Source: Sphingobacteriales bacterium 44-61
Lineage (GTDB): Bacteria; Bacteroidota; Bacteroidia; Chitinophagales; Chitinophagaceae
Assembly (NCBI GenBank): GCA_001898405.1
Contig: MKTW01000008.1
Coordinates: 1 to 64,000, forward strand
DNA length: 64,000 nucleotides
Direction: 5' to 3'
The notes below the pieces were generated by a model, which made no database searches, was not told the origin of the DNA, and saw nothing but the letters and a program-made list of their open reading frames with translations. A program made the translations under genes and the position numbers. Positions 51,053 to 61,059 of this stretch are shown piece by piece; positions within the stretch are counted from its first letter, which is position 1; each line of letters begins with the position of its first letter.

Positions 51053-52390
51053 TTAATGTTTTTGTTTTTTTCTTCGTTTCTTTTTAAGGTCCATCATCAG
51101 TTCAACAGGGAGCGTTGTGGGAGTTGAAGCCGTGTCGGGTGTGGTGAGCTGTGGCAGCGCTTGCAACGGAAATAACTTTGTCTGTCCATCGGTAACAGTG
51201 GCGATTGAGGGTTGCTTTGTTTGCTTTTGAGCGGAACCAGCGACCCCCGTTTGGGATGTTTGAACGGATCTTTGTTGTTTGCTGGTAAGTTTTCTTTGCT
51301 GTTGCTGTACAGTCTGCGGCACCAGGTTCTCTGTACAACGTTTTCTGATTTCGTTGGCACTATAGGATTTACCTAATTCACTGCCGTTGAACACACATTT
51401 CTTTTCCATATCCACATAGGTAATCCCGTACAGCAAGCCGCTCTCATTTTTGCGGGGAACAAGACTTATTTTTTCTCTTCGCAAGGCAGCCATCAGTTCA
51501 TCGAGCGAGGGGTTCGGATGCCTAAAGAAAGCCATATCAATCGCATTCTTTACGCGCAGTTTATGACGCTGTTTAAGTGGCTCGTTGGCTGTAAATTTTG
51601 TTTCCAAGAAAGTCAGTGTGGGTTTGCTATAGATATGACTGGCGGGAATGGGTACGCCGATCTTCTGTCCCTTCTCATTCAGTACACGATAGACAAGCCC
51701 ATTATTCTTGTAAATACGGGAATCCTTGCTGCCTCTGTCCGCTACAATATTGTATTGCTGAAGGACAGCATTCAGTTCGGGCAACGAACTATACAGGTAA
51801 TTGGGTAGCACATGATCAAGCACATTGGTAATAGCTCTTTTTATGCCTGTTTTGGGATTCTTGCCAGCCAGAACTTTTGAGGCATTCACCGCCTTTAATT
51901 CATAGGCCTGTTTTAATCCGGCAGATTCTGCCCGGACCAGGTTGAAGTCTTTTTCGATCTGTTTTCTGGCAGGTTCAGATTTATCTCTGCCAATGTAGTG
52001 CAGGTTAATAGCCTTGCCATTGCTGCGGATATTAGTAGTGACGATGTGTATATGTGGATGGTCTGCATCATGGTGCTGATAGACCAGGTAAGGCTGCTTG
52101 GCGAACCCGATCTTTTGCATATAGCTATCTGCAATCCGCTTGAGCGTTTCAATGGTAAGGCGCTCAGACGGGTCGAAGTTCAAGGAGATATGTATGCTGT
52201 TAACGGTAGTGCTTTCGCAAAGTGTTGTCAGCTTCTGAAGCGTCTTTAGTTTATCCTTAAATGTCAGCTCTGCGGTATCCTTTCCAAAGCCTGCTGAATG
52301 GATCAGTACAGCATCTTTTTCAGCCAGCTTATTTTCGTTGTAATGAAGGATATTCCGCAGCGATTTGCCGGGGGTTATCCTTGCAACCAT
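51053..52390 (-). CDS. mobB: Relaxase, MobB-type (MOBP/Bacteroides)
   Basis: 445-aa mobilization nuclease. The relaxase HUH metal-binding motif is H-P-H-I-H (111-115, in HHDADHPHIHIVTTN), and LHYNENK near residue 15 holds a candidate catalytic Tyr. The C-terminal half is basic and low-complexity with many Gln and Lys, ending KKKRRKKQKH. It would nick oriT and lead strand transfer. It overlaps mobA by 16 nt. Confidence 0.93.
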   Translation of the reverse strand: MVARITPGKSLRNILHYNENKLAEKDAVLIHSAGFGKDTAELTFKDKLKTLQKLTTLCESTTVNSIHISLNFDPSERLTIETLKRIADSYMQKIGFAKQPYLVYQHHDADHPHIHIVTTNIRSNGKAINLHYIGRDKSEPARKQIEKDFNLVRAESAGLKQAYELKAVNASKVLAGKNPKTGIKRAITNVLDHVLPNYLYSSLPELNAVLQQYNIVADRGSKDSRIYKNNGLVYRVLNEKGQKIGVPIPASHIYSKPTLTFLETKFTANEPLKQRHKLRVKNAIDMAFFRHPNPSLDELMAALRREKISLVPRKNESGLLYGITYVDMEKKCVFNGSELGKSYSANEIRKRCTENLVPQTVQQQQRKLTSKQQRSVQTSQTGVAGSAQKQTKQPSIATVTDGQTKLFPLQALPQLTTPDTASTPTTLPVELMMDLKKKRRKKQKH

Positions 52391-52770
52391 TGGTCATTGA
52401 TTTGATTGATTTTTGATTTGATTTCGGACACCTTATTAAGCATGATTTTTTGGGCTGATTCATTCAATGCCATCCAGCCAAGTATCTCCGGCACGTCACG
52501 TAACAAGTGCAGGCGTTTGACTACCTGATTGTAGTTATTACCGATGGCGTTGAGTTCCTCACGAAGCACAATTAGCTCTGCCATTAAGTCATCGAGTGAC
52601 TGGTTTCGATACTTGACCTGGACAGGTTTATTGAGCAATACTTTGCGCAGGTATTCGCTTAAATGCTGGTGGGTGGTCTTAGCAAATTGCTTGTTGATAT
52701 GGTCAAATTCTTTGTCGGTAAGCCGGACATAGAGGCGCCGGCTTCGATTGTTTTTTGATTCACTCATCAC
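52375..52770 (-). CDS. mobA: Mobilization accessory protein MobA (relaxosome)
   Basis: 131-aa protein with an N-terminal ribbon-helix-helix-like DNA-binding part (RRLYVRLTDKEFDHINKQFAKT; LSEYLRKVLLN) and a helical tail with LIVLREELNAIGNNYNQVVKRL. This is the oriT-binding partner typically placed just upstream of the relaxase in Bacteroidota elements. The first ATG at 52770 or the second at 52767 could be used. Confidence 0.88.
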   Translation of the reverse strand: MMSESKNNRSRRLYVRLTDKEFDHINKQFAKTTHQHLSEYLRKVLLNKPVQVKYRNQSLDDLMAELIVLREELNAIGNNYNQVVKRLHLLRDVPEILGWMALNESAQKIMLNKVSEIKSKINQINDQWLQG

Positions 52771-53031: not shown

Positions 53032-53922
53032 TCAGGGAGATTGTCTTTGCTGTTGCTTTATCCCTGAACCGAAGGCAGTCAACCACTTGTTCAAGTCACC
53101 ATGATGGCGGTACAATCCCCTTTCATCGGAGAATTTTTTCGGGTCAAGATCAAGTGCTTTTTTCGTGCATTTTTGTCCCGTATTATCGTTGTCGAGATAG
53201 AGAAAAGTTCGTTCATGTTGCTGCATTTTTGGCAGCTCTTTTTCAAAAAATGAAGTAGAATTGAGGATCAGGAAATTCCGGTTTGGCTGTGGTTGCTGGT
53301 GCAGCATAGCCTTGTAAGAAAGGAAATTAAAGAAGCCTTCAAATACTGCCAGTTCCTTTGAACCGTTGTCAAAAAAGGTAGGAGCTTTGGGCTTACTGGC
53401 GGCTTTGATATACTGATTACGCAGTTCATAGCCGCCTTCATTGTTGGGGAATCCGAGGGCATAATATTGCTTGCTATTAAGCTCGTAGTGAACTTCTTTT
53501 AAATAAGCATGTGCGATGTCATCAGGTATGCGGCGGCTGCGGAAATATTTGATCAGGGGAAGGGAGGCAATAGGCTTTACACGGAGTATCTTAATAGTGC
53601 CTGCCTCTTCATCCAGACCGTGATATTTTTTTTGTACATCTTTATGAAGAACGGGCTTTACTCCTGGGCCTTGCAATAGATTCAGAAAATTACTTTCATT
53701 GCATTTGTGGTATTTCACACCGAAGTCAACAATATTCCCAGATTCACCAGTTCCCCAATCTTTCCAGCGGTTCAGTTTCCTGTTGATCTTAAAGGAAGGC
53801 GTTCTTTCTTCATGAAGCGGAGAATAATACCAGTAATTGGGTTCGGTTATTCGATGTGGAGTAAATCCCAACTTAGACAGGTAATCCACCATGTCTATTT
53901 CTTTTGCTTGTTTAATGTTCAT
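53032..53922 (-). CDS. Primase-like protein with toprim domain and degenerate CHC2 zinc region
   Basis: 296-aa protein. The N-terminal segment YYSPLHEERTPSFKIN and GTGESGNIVDFGVKY follow the DnaG/CHC2 pattern, but the zinc cysteines are absent (only the His remains). The C-terminal toprim-like domain shows AVFEGFFNFLSYKA and LYLDNDNTGQKC. The start at 53922 (MNIKQAKEIDMVDYL) matches the family; the frame is open to 54000. Such proteins occur near mob genes and may prime or bind transferred single strands. Confidence 0.8.
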   Translation of the reverse strand: MNIKQAKEIDMVDYLSKLGFTPHRITEPNYWYYSPLHEERTPSFKINRKLNRWKDWGTGESGNIVDFGVKYHKCNESNFLNLLQGPGVKPVLHKDVQKKYHGLDEEAGTIKILRVKPIASLPLIKYFRSRRIPDDIAHAYLKEVHYELNSKQYYALGFPNNEGGYELRNQYIKAASKPKAPTFFDNGSKELAVFEGFFNFLSYKAMLHQQPQPNRNFLILNSTSFFEKELPKMQQHERTFLYLDNDNTGQKCTKKALDLDPKKFSDERGLYRHHGDLNKWLTAFGSGIKQQQRQSP

Positions 53923-54021
53923 ACGCACTTTTTTCTTGCTCACAAAATCATTGACAGGTGAAAGTAAGATGAGCGGGCAAAAAAGAAATGGCTTGTGCAA
54001 TATCGCTACAGGTTAAAGCGG

Positions 54022-59484: not shown

Positions 59485-59910
59485 TTAGAAAGGGAGGTCG
59501 TCAGTGGTTTCGGCAGGTGTTGCTCCGGTAGCTGCTTTAGTTTTCTTTTTGCCGTTCCTTTTGTTGGTTTGTTTAGGGGGTGGCGGCGTGTCTTTCGGTT
59601 TGGGGGAATACAGGTCAATGTTTTGTACCTGCTGGATAATAGAGGCCCGGGCTTCTCCATCGGGTGAAGTCCATGTGTCGAGTCCGATGTGTCCGGTAGT
59701 GGCTACGAGATTTCCTTTTTTCAGGTAGGCGGCAATGCCGGTAGAAAGCCAATAACTGCAATTGACGTAGGTGGTGGATTCTTTTACCTCGTCGCTTCCC
59801 TTCGCTTTGTATTTTCTGTTCAGGGCAAGGGAGAAATTAACGACTTTGCGGCCGTCCTTTGTTTGGTTGATCTTTGCATCTGCGGTGAGTCGTCCGATAA
59901 GAGTTTGCAT
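59485..59910 (-). CDS. ssb: Single-stranded DNA-binding protein
   Basis: 141-aa OB-fold SSB. It starts MQTLIGRLTADAKINQTKDG and carries the core YVNCSYWLSTGIAAYLKKG and GLDTWTSPDGEARASI. A flexible tail ends in the acidic DDLPF tip that recruits partner proteins. It is the first gene of the minus-strand accessory operon and likely protects single strands during transfer. Confidence 0.93.
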   Translation of the reverse strand: MQTLIGRLTADAKINQTKDGRKVVNFSLALNRKYKAKGSDEVKESTTYVNCSYWLSTGIAAYLKKGNLVATTGHIGLDTWTSPDGEARASIIQQVQNIDLYSPKPKDTPPPPKQTNKRNGKKKTKAATGATPAETTDDLPF

Positions 59911-60017
59911 AACGAAAATTTTGAGGTTGAATAATGTGGGCTTGCTGTTCGCTGCGCCCGTTCTTTCTTTTTCGCCAGCAACGCTTTGGATTGCAGCCCG
60001 GAGGATCTTTGCCAGTT

Positions 60018-60101
60018 TTTGCGATAAAAAATACTACCCCCGCGAACTGAAGTCCGGCGATAGCCGGACACCGCTATTGGGGTGGAGATTTTTTTCGCAA
60101 A
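60018..60101. other. Nested hairpin, candidate structured RNA or transfer/replication site
   Basis: Outer pairing TTTGCG (60018-60023) with CGCAAA (60096-60101) and AAAAAAT with ATTTTTT (60026-60032 with 60088-60094). Middle pairing CTACCCC (60034-60040) with GGGGTGG (60079-60085). Tip hairpin GTCCGGC-GATA-GCCGGAC (60052-60069). The whole forms an imperfect stem of about 84 nt. Confidence 0.6.
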
Positions 60102-60327
60102 CCCGCCAGGGCCAGCGTAGCCGCAGGCGAAGCGCAGAACTTGCAAAGTCACGGAGGGATGCAATACAAGAGTCCGGATAGCAATGAAAAGCAGTGTGGG
60201 GAGCGTGCAGCGGGCCAATGCGTGAGGGATTGCAGTGGAAAGCCCGCAGCCGTTAAGGAACGAAAGCGGCGAGGACTTGCAACGAAAAGCCCGACCCGTA
60301 GGGGCACGCCCTGTCTTCTATATTTTA

Positions 60328-60359
60328 TTGCGTAGGAAGAAAAAAAACAGGTATCTTAT
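60328..60359 (+). promoter_or_regulatory. Putative promoter of the HARE/nuclease gene
   Basis: TTG at 60328-60330 and TATCTTAT at 60352-60359 are 21 nt apart. The ATG at 60364 is 4 nt downstream, so a near-leaderless transcript is expected if this is used. Confidence 0.4.
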
Positions 60360-60363
60360 AGGT

Positions 60364-61059
60364 ATGACACTTCATGCGGCTATTGTTCAGCTCTTGCAGG
60401 TTACCCAACAACCAATGACTATCCGGGAGATCGCGGATCACCTGAATTTCCATCACTGGTATGTAAAAGCAGACGGGTCGAAGATCACTGCCTTTCAGAT
60501 CGGCAGAAGGATAAAAGGGCATCCGGAGTTATTTAGCCTGGATCATTCGGTCGTTCATTTGTTAAAGGAAAATGGCGTTATTCAGGTTGGTGGTAGCCAT
60601 TACCAAAAGAAAGTAAGGGAGCGAAATAAAAAAGCGGTAAGGGATGAGCAGTATGTGCTGGATATATGCGACCAGGTGTTGGGTGTGATTTCAAAACGGG
60701 GACACCGGTTTGATTTCCTGTTGGGAGATAAGAACAAGCAGGGAAAAGCAGCGAAGTTGCCGGTAGATGCGTATTATGAAAGGCTGGGACTGGTGATCGA
60801 GTACAGGGAGCGGCAGCATACGGAGGCCGTGTTTCATTTTGACAAGCCGGACCGTGTGACGGTAAGCGGCATGGGCCGGGCTGCCCAAAGAAAAAGATAC
60901 GATCAGTTTAGAAGGGAGGTATTGCCAGCCCAAGGCCTTAGCCTAATAGAAATAGACTATTCCCATTTCCTGCATAATAGCAGCAAAAGAATTAAACGAG
61001 ATAAAAGCAGGGATACGGAGATCATCCGGCAACGCTTATGGTCATTTATACCGAAGTGA
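60364..61059 (+). CDS. HARE-HTH / Vsr-like nuclease fusion protein
   Basis: 231-aa protein with the start at 60364 (MTLHAAIVQLLQVTQQ); the frame is open upstream but is GC-rich noncoding. Residues 1-67 match a HARE-HTH-type winged helix (QPMTIREIADHL; ITAFQIGRRIKGHPELF), a DNA-binding module often joined to modification or restriction enzymes. Residues 130-205 read VDAYYERLGLVIEYRERQH, then D-R, then a helix, then GLSLIEIDYSHF: a Vsr/DUF559-like PD-(D/E)xK core with D135, E146 and Q151-H152. Likely a DNA-targeting endonuclease. It converges with the phospholipase-D-like gene. Confidence 0.65.
   Translation: MTLHAAIVQLLQVTQQPMTIREIADHLNFHHWYVKADGSKITAFQIGRRIKGHPELFSLDHSVVHLLKENGVIQVGGSHYQKKVRERNKKAVRDEQYVLDICDQVLGVISKRGHRFDFLLGDKNKQGKAAKLPVDAYYERLGLVIEYRERQHTEAVFHFDKPDRVTVSGMGRAAQRKRYDQFRREVLPAQGLSLIEIDYSHFLHNSSKRIKRDKSRDTEIIRQRLWSFIPK

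Follow-up and report, generated by a model that had tools for sequence, protein, structure and literature searches.

The stretch of DNA analysed here (the window) comprises 64,000 nt of Sphingobacteriales bacterium 44-61. Its minus strand carries a relaxase gene, a MobC-like gene and a coupling-protein gene and, to their right, an ssb gene that starts at 59910. The ATG of the next open reading frame (ORF) lies at 60364, and the gap between them (59911 to 60363) measures exactly 453 nt. The ORF list holds no convincing frame in this gap, as an earlier note made from the sequence alone had stated; its HARE/nuclease label for the ORF to the right found no backing, as that ORF has no Pfam match at E 0.001. 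The gap consists of two separate structures, a nested hairpin at 59986-60169 and a repeat element at about 60209-60311 (Table 1). Folded as RNA, the whole 453 nt are ordinary (z -0.98 for the plus and -1.89 for the minus strand), indicating that the stem signal is local. A repeat finder at default settings listed nothing in the gap, and Rfam at gathering thresholds reported two tRNAs only in the whole window.

Table 1. Features of the window that bear on the 453-nt gap.
Feature	Position	Strand	Remarks
Relaxase	51056..52390	-	PF03432, E 6.1e-30; on the side and strand expected relative to the hairpin
MobC/NikA-like accessory protein	52378..52770	-	PF19514, PF21983
CHC2/Toprim primase-like gene	53035..54000		within the element
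ssb, served gene	59485..59910	-	PF00436, E 1.7e-17
Leader stretch TTGCTGGC(G/C)AAAAAGAAAGAACG	59959..59981	-	identical in both copies of this genome and in G071 and G141
Long nested imperfect hairpin, candidate single-stranded DNA promoter	59986..60169	+	about 184 nt; fold with coordinates
Inner stem	60018..60101	+	core of the larger hairpin
Family core AAATACTACC-variable loop-TGGAGATTTTT	60029..60093	+	pattern match
7-bp tip hairpin	60052..60069	+	within a loop that varies among family members
Candidate -33 TTG, 3' arm	60141..60143	+	has the sense of the non-template strand if the folded strand is transcribed leftward
Degenerate -7 position TACAAGAG	60165..60172	+	family consensus TAnnTTTG; 21 nt past the TTG
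Flavo-1-like dispersed repeat	60209..60311	+	Rfam match 60209-60300; similarity elsewhere 60219-60311
Two TTGCA..G.AAAGCCCG blocks	60230..60293	+	47 bp apart; facing sides of the Flavo-1 internal loop
ORF to the right of the gap	60364..61056	+	

The 84-nt stem described in the earlier note is real: its DNA fold has a z score of -5.9, and 0 of 200 shuffled sequences were equally stable. The tip hairpin is a perfect 7 bp (GTCCGGC/GCCGGAC, 60052-60058 paired with 60063-60069), and the inner stem closes at its base with TTTGCGA/TCGCAAA, above which AAAAAAT pairs with ATTTTTT. This stem is itself the end of a longer series of pairing steps, which from the outside inward are TTG/CAA, ATTGCA/TGCAAT, CCC/GGG, CTTTGC/GCAAAG and AGTT/AACT, followed by the 84-nt core. 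The same genome contains a second copy of the region 34 kb away (C8:93585-94002), 77% identical, which stands before another leftward gene group. The outer arm reads ATTGCATCC/GGATGCAAT in this second copy and in genome G141, and ATTGCATCG/CGATGCAAT in genome G071.

The ssb leader (59820-59985, minus strand) can be read as M/LQxxALLAKKKER in four related elements. A leader peptide MQxxALLAKKKER is one possibility, with four copies only and no ATG in the window copy; the stretch may be either a peptide or conserved DNA. The leader pattern, with a spacing of 6 N, had no match in viral contigs; its matches among genome contigs were Longitalea luteola and a planctomycete contig regarded as a chance match.

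The repeat element was compared with the Rfam family Flavo-1 (RF01705), which it matches over the full length of the model (positions 1-76 of 76) at 30.8 bits (E 1.6e-4). Of 17 further loci scanned, 15 scored 29.0 to 34.8 bits, and the remaining two (L002 and L018) did not reach E 0.05. Since these scores lie below the gathering threshold of 42, the repeat is filed as Flavo-1-like rather than as a member of Flavo-1. The 47-bp period noted earlier is real, with two copies of the block, TTGCAGTGGAAAGCCCG at 60230 and TTGCAACGAAAAGCCCG at 60277. Unlike Flavo-1, the repeat is a variant with a variable central stem, and some copies hold long inserts (L067, L031). Such inserts lie in the central loop or by the terminal GACCC/GGGGCACGCC arm in L067, L031, L025, L016, L019 and L021, and the copies with inserts look like a modular dispersed element.

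The distribution of the repeat marks it as an element separate from the hairpin. The repeat part was matched in 25 of 147 genomes of the family (two more matched the hairpin part only, giving 27 listed) and in 34 of 395 genomes of the phylum. Among 26 copies obtained with a strict pattern, three lie beside a hairpin, namely both copies of the window's genome and that of the Bacteroides plasmid p5482; the covariance model of the hairpin described below (R1) had no match around the remaining 23 copies, in loci that mostly extend about 1.5 kb to either side. The window's genome has three Flavo-1 matches, two of which are the copies beside hairpins. With DNA energies the plus strand of the repeat is the more stable in 20 of the 26 copies and the minus strand in 5, and with RNA energies the numbers are 16 and 10, a weaker preference than that of the hairpin. 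A Flavobacterium psychrophilum transcriptome, in the accessible part of its report, places Flavo-1 in both orientations relative to transcripts, with many copies outside them (PMC9723704). We treat Flavo-1 apart from any role as a single-stranded DNA (ssDNA) promoter. In the Bacteroides fragilis plasmid Q1F2-p2 (L078, 3100-3581), a Flavo-1-like copy lies to the right of an apparent, unannotated ArdC start, and a different long hairpin ending in ATACCTTAG stands between the two, in the same order as in p5482. This hairpin has no R1 match and is perhaps a divergent promoter hairpin.

We searched for relatives of the hairpin using the pattern AAATACKACC-N14-44-TGGAGATTTTT, which matches once in the window and not in 100 shuffled versions. 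It was found at seven places in five of 395 genomes of the phylum, of which one falls within an ORF and is regarded as a chance match; the reversed control pattern had no match in the same genomes. Matches of the core pattern within ORFs (L085, L088 and L089) were dropped as chance. Plain DNA similarity recovered the hairpin part in one of the 395 genomes, the window's own, and in three others of the family (G071, G141 and G101), and a pattern and a covariance model were therefore needed. A stricter pattern of the arms found none in viral contigs, and the phage collection searched gave no match.

Model R1 was built from 15 aligned sites, ranging from the two copies of the window's genome to those of p5482 and of a Bacteroides ovatus element. 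Because the genome scan scored no more than 16 or 10 first-look candidates in each genome, the counts are lower bounds: sites were present in at least 42 of 244 genomes of the family and at least 22 of 385 of the phylum (E up to 0.01), five matching genomes being common to both samples. The hairpin is also found on Bacteroidales plasmids. In total, 92 matches over 89 fetched sources yielded 77 nonredundant sites, 64 of them held out from model building; near-duplicates were removed, as was L171, a near-perfect palindrome matched on both strands. The kept sites score at least 36.4 bits (64.3 for the window site, one of the 15 used for building), compared with a best score of 27.9 in 66 other loci (233,867 bases in total, the F leading region among them). 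Scans with Rfam returned no family for the hairpin, either in the window or at nine further loci. In the open literature, to which our search was confined, we found no published description of this hairpin family, and searches with its core sequence strings gave no paper on the subject by title among the matches listed.

The family folds as a single strand. For the plus strand, taken by convention as that carrying TACTACC, the mean fold z score is -5.25, and 66 of the 77 sites lie below -2. Pairing each outer arm with its cognate gave -23.8 kcal/mol, compared with -12.8 kcal/mol for arms taken from other sites, and a site's own partner ranked in the top 5% for 53 of 77 sites and best for 32; these outer arms lie almost wholly outside model R1. 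The covariance model search across Bacteroidota genomes, as suggested in the earlier note, revealed both conservation and compensatory changes for the stem, and the observation stands as far as conservation is concerned. Over 17 named pairs and 89 distinct rows, 147 cells are doubly changed compared with 46.7 in shuffles (0 of 500 reached this number), and 131 of the 147 fall in six outer pairs that are absent from the model structure. The 15 sites used for building, which were picked by their exact core, display slight covariation in the core (2 of 11 pairs). RNAalifold applied to the gap-rich alignment (A2) returned no consensus and no pairs. The sites are related by descent, and p-values of sign tests thus overstate their independence.

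The fold also prefers one strand. It is more stable on the plus than on the minus strand in 70 of 77 sites, by -4.5 kcal/mol, of which -1.9 is owed to base composition, and the preference exceeds the shuffled difference in 61 of 77. A count of G·T pairs with ordinary pairs on either side gave 143 for the plus and 50 for the minus strand, favoring the template strand of the left-hand gene, whereas within the inner stem G·T and A·C cells occur in similar numbers (35 and 30). A stable hairpin on the template strand of the served gene is thus found here as in the ssDNA promoters of the Frpo/ssi type. RNA energies give the same direction in 14 of 15 sites. This preference for the template strand speaks against an RNA transcribed from the ssb side.

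Bacteroidota promoters are described, in the available parts of two reports, as TTTG at -33 and TAnnTTTG at -7, with the -33 element weakly conserved (PMC6847099 and PMC9723704). We looked for TTG-N18-23-TAnnTTTG in the 3' arm read 5' to 3' and found the full box at 35 of 77 sites, compared with 0.73 in shuffles (maximum 5 in 100). The 5' arm contains it once and the reverse complements of both arms not at all (0 and 0) over the same 77 sites. When TAnnTTTG is scored by itself, 48 of 77 sites have it in the 3' arm, the other 29 being without the exact string; for the 64 held-out sites the counts are 31 with the full box and 42 with TAnnTTTG. Going outward from the tip, the order is an AT-rich tract, the -33 element and the -7 element; at the 35 sites with the full box, pairing to the 5' arm reaches 92% for the -33 TTG and 49% for the -7 box.

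In the interval from the start of the served gene to the far end of the element, a TAnnTTTG that points left occurs less often than in shuffles (4 of 69 sites compared with 10.2), and one that points right occurs more often (46 compared with 14.8). The box of the 3' arm is wrongly directed for a double-stranded promoter of the left-hand gene, and it would be rightly directed in a folded single strand: the 3' arm of a folded template has the sequence of the non-template strand, so that a box that points rightward in double-stranded DNA would drive leftward transcription in the hairpin. At the family level the boxes are rebuilt in the stem toward the served gene, and the window copy retains the TTG and the TA only. 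Its -7 position is TAC without TTTG, as in the second copy of the same genome, G071 and G141, and these four are diverged members of the family. Activity is less certain for the window copy than for the family as a whole, and this copy may be weak, rely on another box or have decayed.

We then considered the flanking genes, which were called with a crude ORF caller of our own. At 69 of 76 sites the nearest left-hand gene is transcribed away from the hairpin, and at 7 it points the wrong way; the right-hand gene is unbiased (36 plus, 40 minus). Seventy served proteins were scanned against Pfam, covering 68 of the 69 left-hand genes, the annotated ArdC of p5482 in exchange for a spurious ORF, and the JAB gene of the B. 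ovatus element. They include 23 SSB, 14 DUF6943, two RadC and two DUF932 proteins, and one each of ArdA, ArdC, PcfK, putAbiC and AbiEii. Some served genes are not related to transfer by name (outer-membrane protein, DUF6266, DUF4238). The B. ovatus element (L094) has two hairpins, one before JAB and one before ArdA, and two sites within a few hundred bases occur in L094, G370:C19 and G036:C28. Eleven served proteins (left-hand genes of L108, L117, L118, L119, L157, L163, L167, L170, L172, L173 and L175; ten aligned) form a family of about 70 residues without a Pfam family in the scan. They share the motif LSRLMxLSWxIQ...TRSKALxAAWAIxSNED..., and an AlphaFold model gives three helices with a mean pLDDT of 81 and no match in the PDB at E 0.001 or better. 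This family is a candidate establishment or antidefense protein.

A later set of five Bacteroidales plasmid loci, collected by DNA similarity to the L114 core, has the same traits. TACCTTTG is present in 5/5, the full box in 4/5, and the plus strand is the more stable in 5/5 (L186 and L190 have the same sequence). The nearest gene lying fully to the left is leftward in 4/4 annotated loci, and belongs to small-protein/PcfK groups.

The position of the hairpin relative to the transfer genes was analyzed in 20 genomes with 44 sites. A PF03432 relaxase lies within 45 kb on the same contig for 20 sites, and none does for the other 24. The nearest relaxase is to the left in 18 of 20 and on the opposite strand in 19 of 20, with both traits in 17 and 3 failing; counting each relaxase once, the layout holds for 15 of 18. 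p5482 has a layout like that of the window with a DUF5712 relaxase, and a search for DUF5712 relaxases in 14 genomes gave one match, on a contig without a hairpin site. An origin of transfer presumably lies just upstream of the MobC/NikA-like gene of the window. If, as is usual in conjugation, the tra side of an element enters the recipient last, the plus strand of the window would be the one transferred, with the hairpin in the leading region. Several plasmid records with the hairpin are typed as nonmobilizable by MOB-suite, although two of them have tra genes. The genome of the window (G000; contigs C2, C8, C10, C11, C16 and C17) has nine PF03432 relaxase matches and four R1 sites, and thus seems to carry many conjugative elements.

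Taken together, the hairpin is probably an ssDNA promoter of the leading region of the element, similar to Frpo in function and unrelated to it in sequence; we put the probability of this reading at about 0.7. During conjugation the transferred strand would reach the recipient as single-stranded DNA, and the plus strand of 59986-60169 would fold back on itself. The 3' arm, with its AT-rich tract, -33 TTG and -7 TAnnTTTG near the base, would stand in for the absent non-template strand. RNA polymerase carrying the primary sigma factor of Bacteroidota would bind the folded duplex and transcribe leftward on the same strand into ssb, and the newly arrived element would thereby switch on protective genes at once. 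The family itself, its covariation, its strand preference, the consensus of the 3' arm, the rule of the served gene and the relaxase geometry can all be read from sequence and argue for this promoter; use of the fold by RNA polymerase and activity of the degenerate window copy are inferred. It is also rather probable that ssb, ardA/ardC, DUF6943 and the new family of about 70 residues would be switched on at strand entry, the last two as establishment or antidefense proteins.

Among the functions that the earlier note had offered for the region (single-strand origin, replication site or noncoding RNA), one acting on ssDNA fits best, with a promoter preferred over an origin. As to noncoding RNA, the repeat block does match an Rfam RNA family, Flavo-1, at a score below gathering. 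A single-strand initiation site, at which the folded plus strand primes the complementary strand through a primase or an RNA polymerase primer with no gene promoter involved, would agree with a structure that prefers one strand, with a hairpin before ssb and with the primase-like gene of the element; the title of Masai and Arai 1997 also names transcription together with primer synthesis for Frpo. A priming site need not precede operons that point away from it, yet 69 of 76 sites do, sometimes as two sites a few hundred bases apart, and a primase has no need of a sigma-type -33/-7 box. We consider this alternative unlikely.

Two other possibilities seem less probable still, and about equally so. 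If the -7 box served an ordinary double-stranded promoter reading rightward, with the hairpin as an operator or a cruciform, the rightward consensus and the rightward ORF of the window at 60364 would be explained, but the right-hand genes show no bias in orientation; the complementary 5' arm would be superfluous, and the left-hand gene would be left without a recognizable promoter at 65 of 69 sites. The hairpin could instead be part of a structured RNA, noncoding or antisense, that is read rightward from the plus strand and controls the left-hand gene. The greater stability of the plus fold with RNA energies is in line with this proposal. Against it, the promoter consensus lies inside the 3' arm and not upstream of the hairpin, the link with the side and strand of the relaxase is left unexplained, and the hairpin corresponds to no Rfam family in the loci scanned.

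The ssDNA promoter reading invites comparison with Frpo of the F plasmid, a stem-loop reported, in the part of the source available, to restore -10 and -35 boxes and to allow early expression of leading genes (PMC9849209). Like Frpo1 and Frpo2 of F and the ssi-type promoters of ColIb-P9, the hairpin described here is long and imperfect and precedes ssb, probably within the leading region of a conjugative element. As a control we took a pair of F sequences 89% identical to each other as Frpo2 (upstream of ssb) and Frpo1 (13553-14012 of L185). Both are more stable on the template strand (-121.5 compared with -112.5 and -128.5 compared with -114.5), as are most of the hairpins described here on the template strand of the left-hand gene. 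A simple scan for TTGACA/TATAAT in these two copies did not place the boxes. The likeness extends to the presence of more than one copy per element, to boxes and an AT-rich UP element within the stem, as given for Frpo in the accessible passages of PMC11541004 and PMC9849209, and to the served genes, as SSB and DUF932 are both annotated in the F leading region. More generally, SSB and antirestriction genes fit the ssDNA promoter type, and the relaxase side and strand at 17 of 20 sites suggest a leading region. The differences lie in the sequence: a search of the F leading region (L185) with R1 gave no match at E values up to 1, the boxes are TTG and TAnnTTTG instead of TTGACA and TATAAT, and the family occurs in Bacteroidota with a conserved TACTACC...TGGAG internal loop and a side hairpin.

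A likeness to STAXI (Weinberg 2010) should also be mentioned: in the portion of that report available, this structured motif occurs as repeats in the vicinity of ssb, antirestriction and integrase genes, and ssDNA was considered for it (PMC2864571). Unlike our family, STAXI is there a repeated pseudoknot listed for Enterobacteriales (PMC2864571), and Rfam scans of the window and of further loci returned no STAXI.

Single-stranded promoters explain how protective genes are expressed on arrival of enterobacterial plasmids. A large survey of leading regions used known Frpo sequences and boxes of the E. coli type, and the string 'Bacteroid-' is absent from its main text (PMC11541004). In the open literature, searched in part by abstract or listing, we found no published counterpart of the proposed promoter. 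Bacteroidota exchange genes by conjugation, yet their polymerase recognizes different boxes. The motif and its covariance model may provide a finder for leading regions and antidefense genes in this phylum, and the hairpin is a candidate part for genetic tools.
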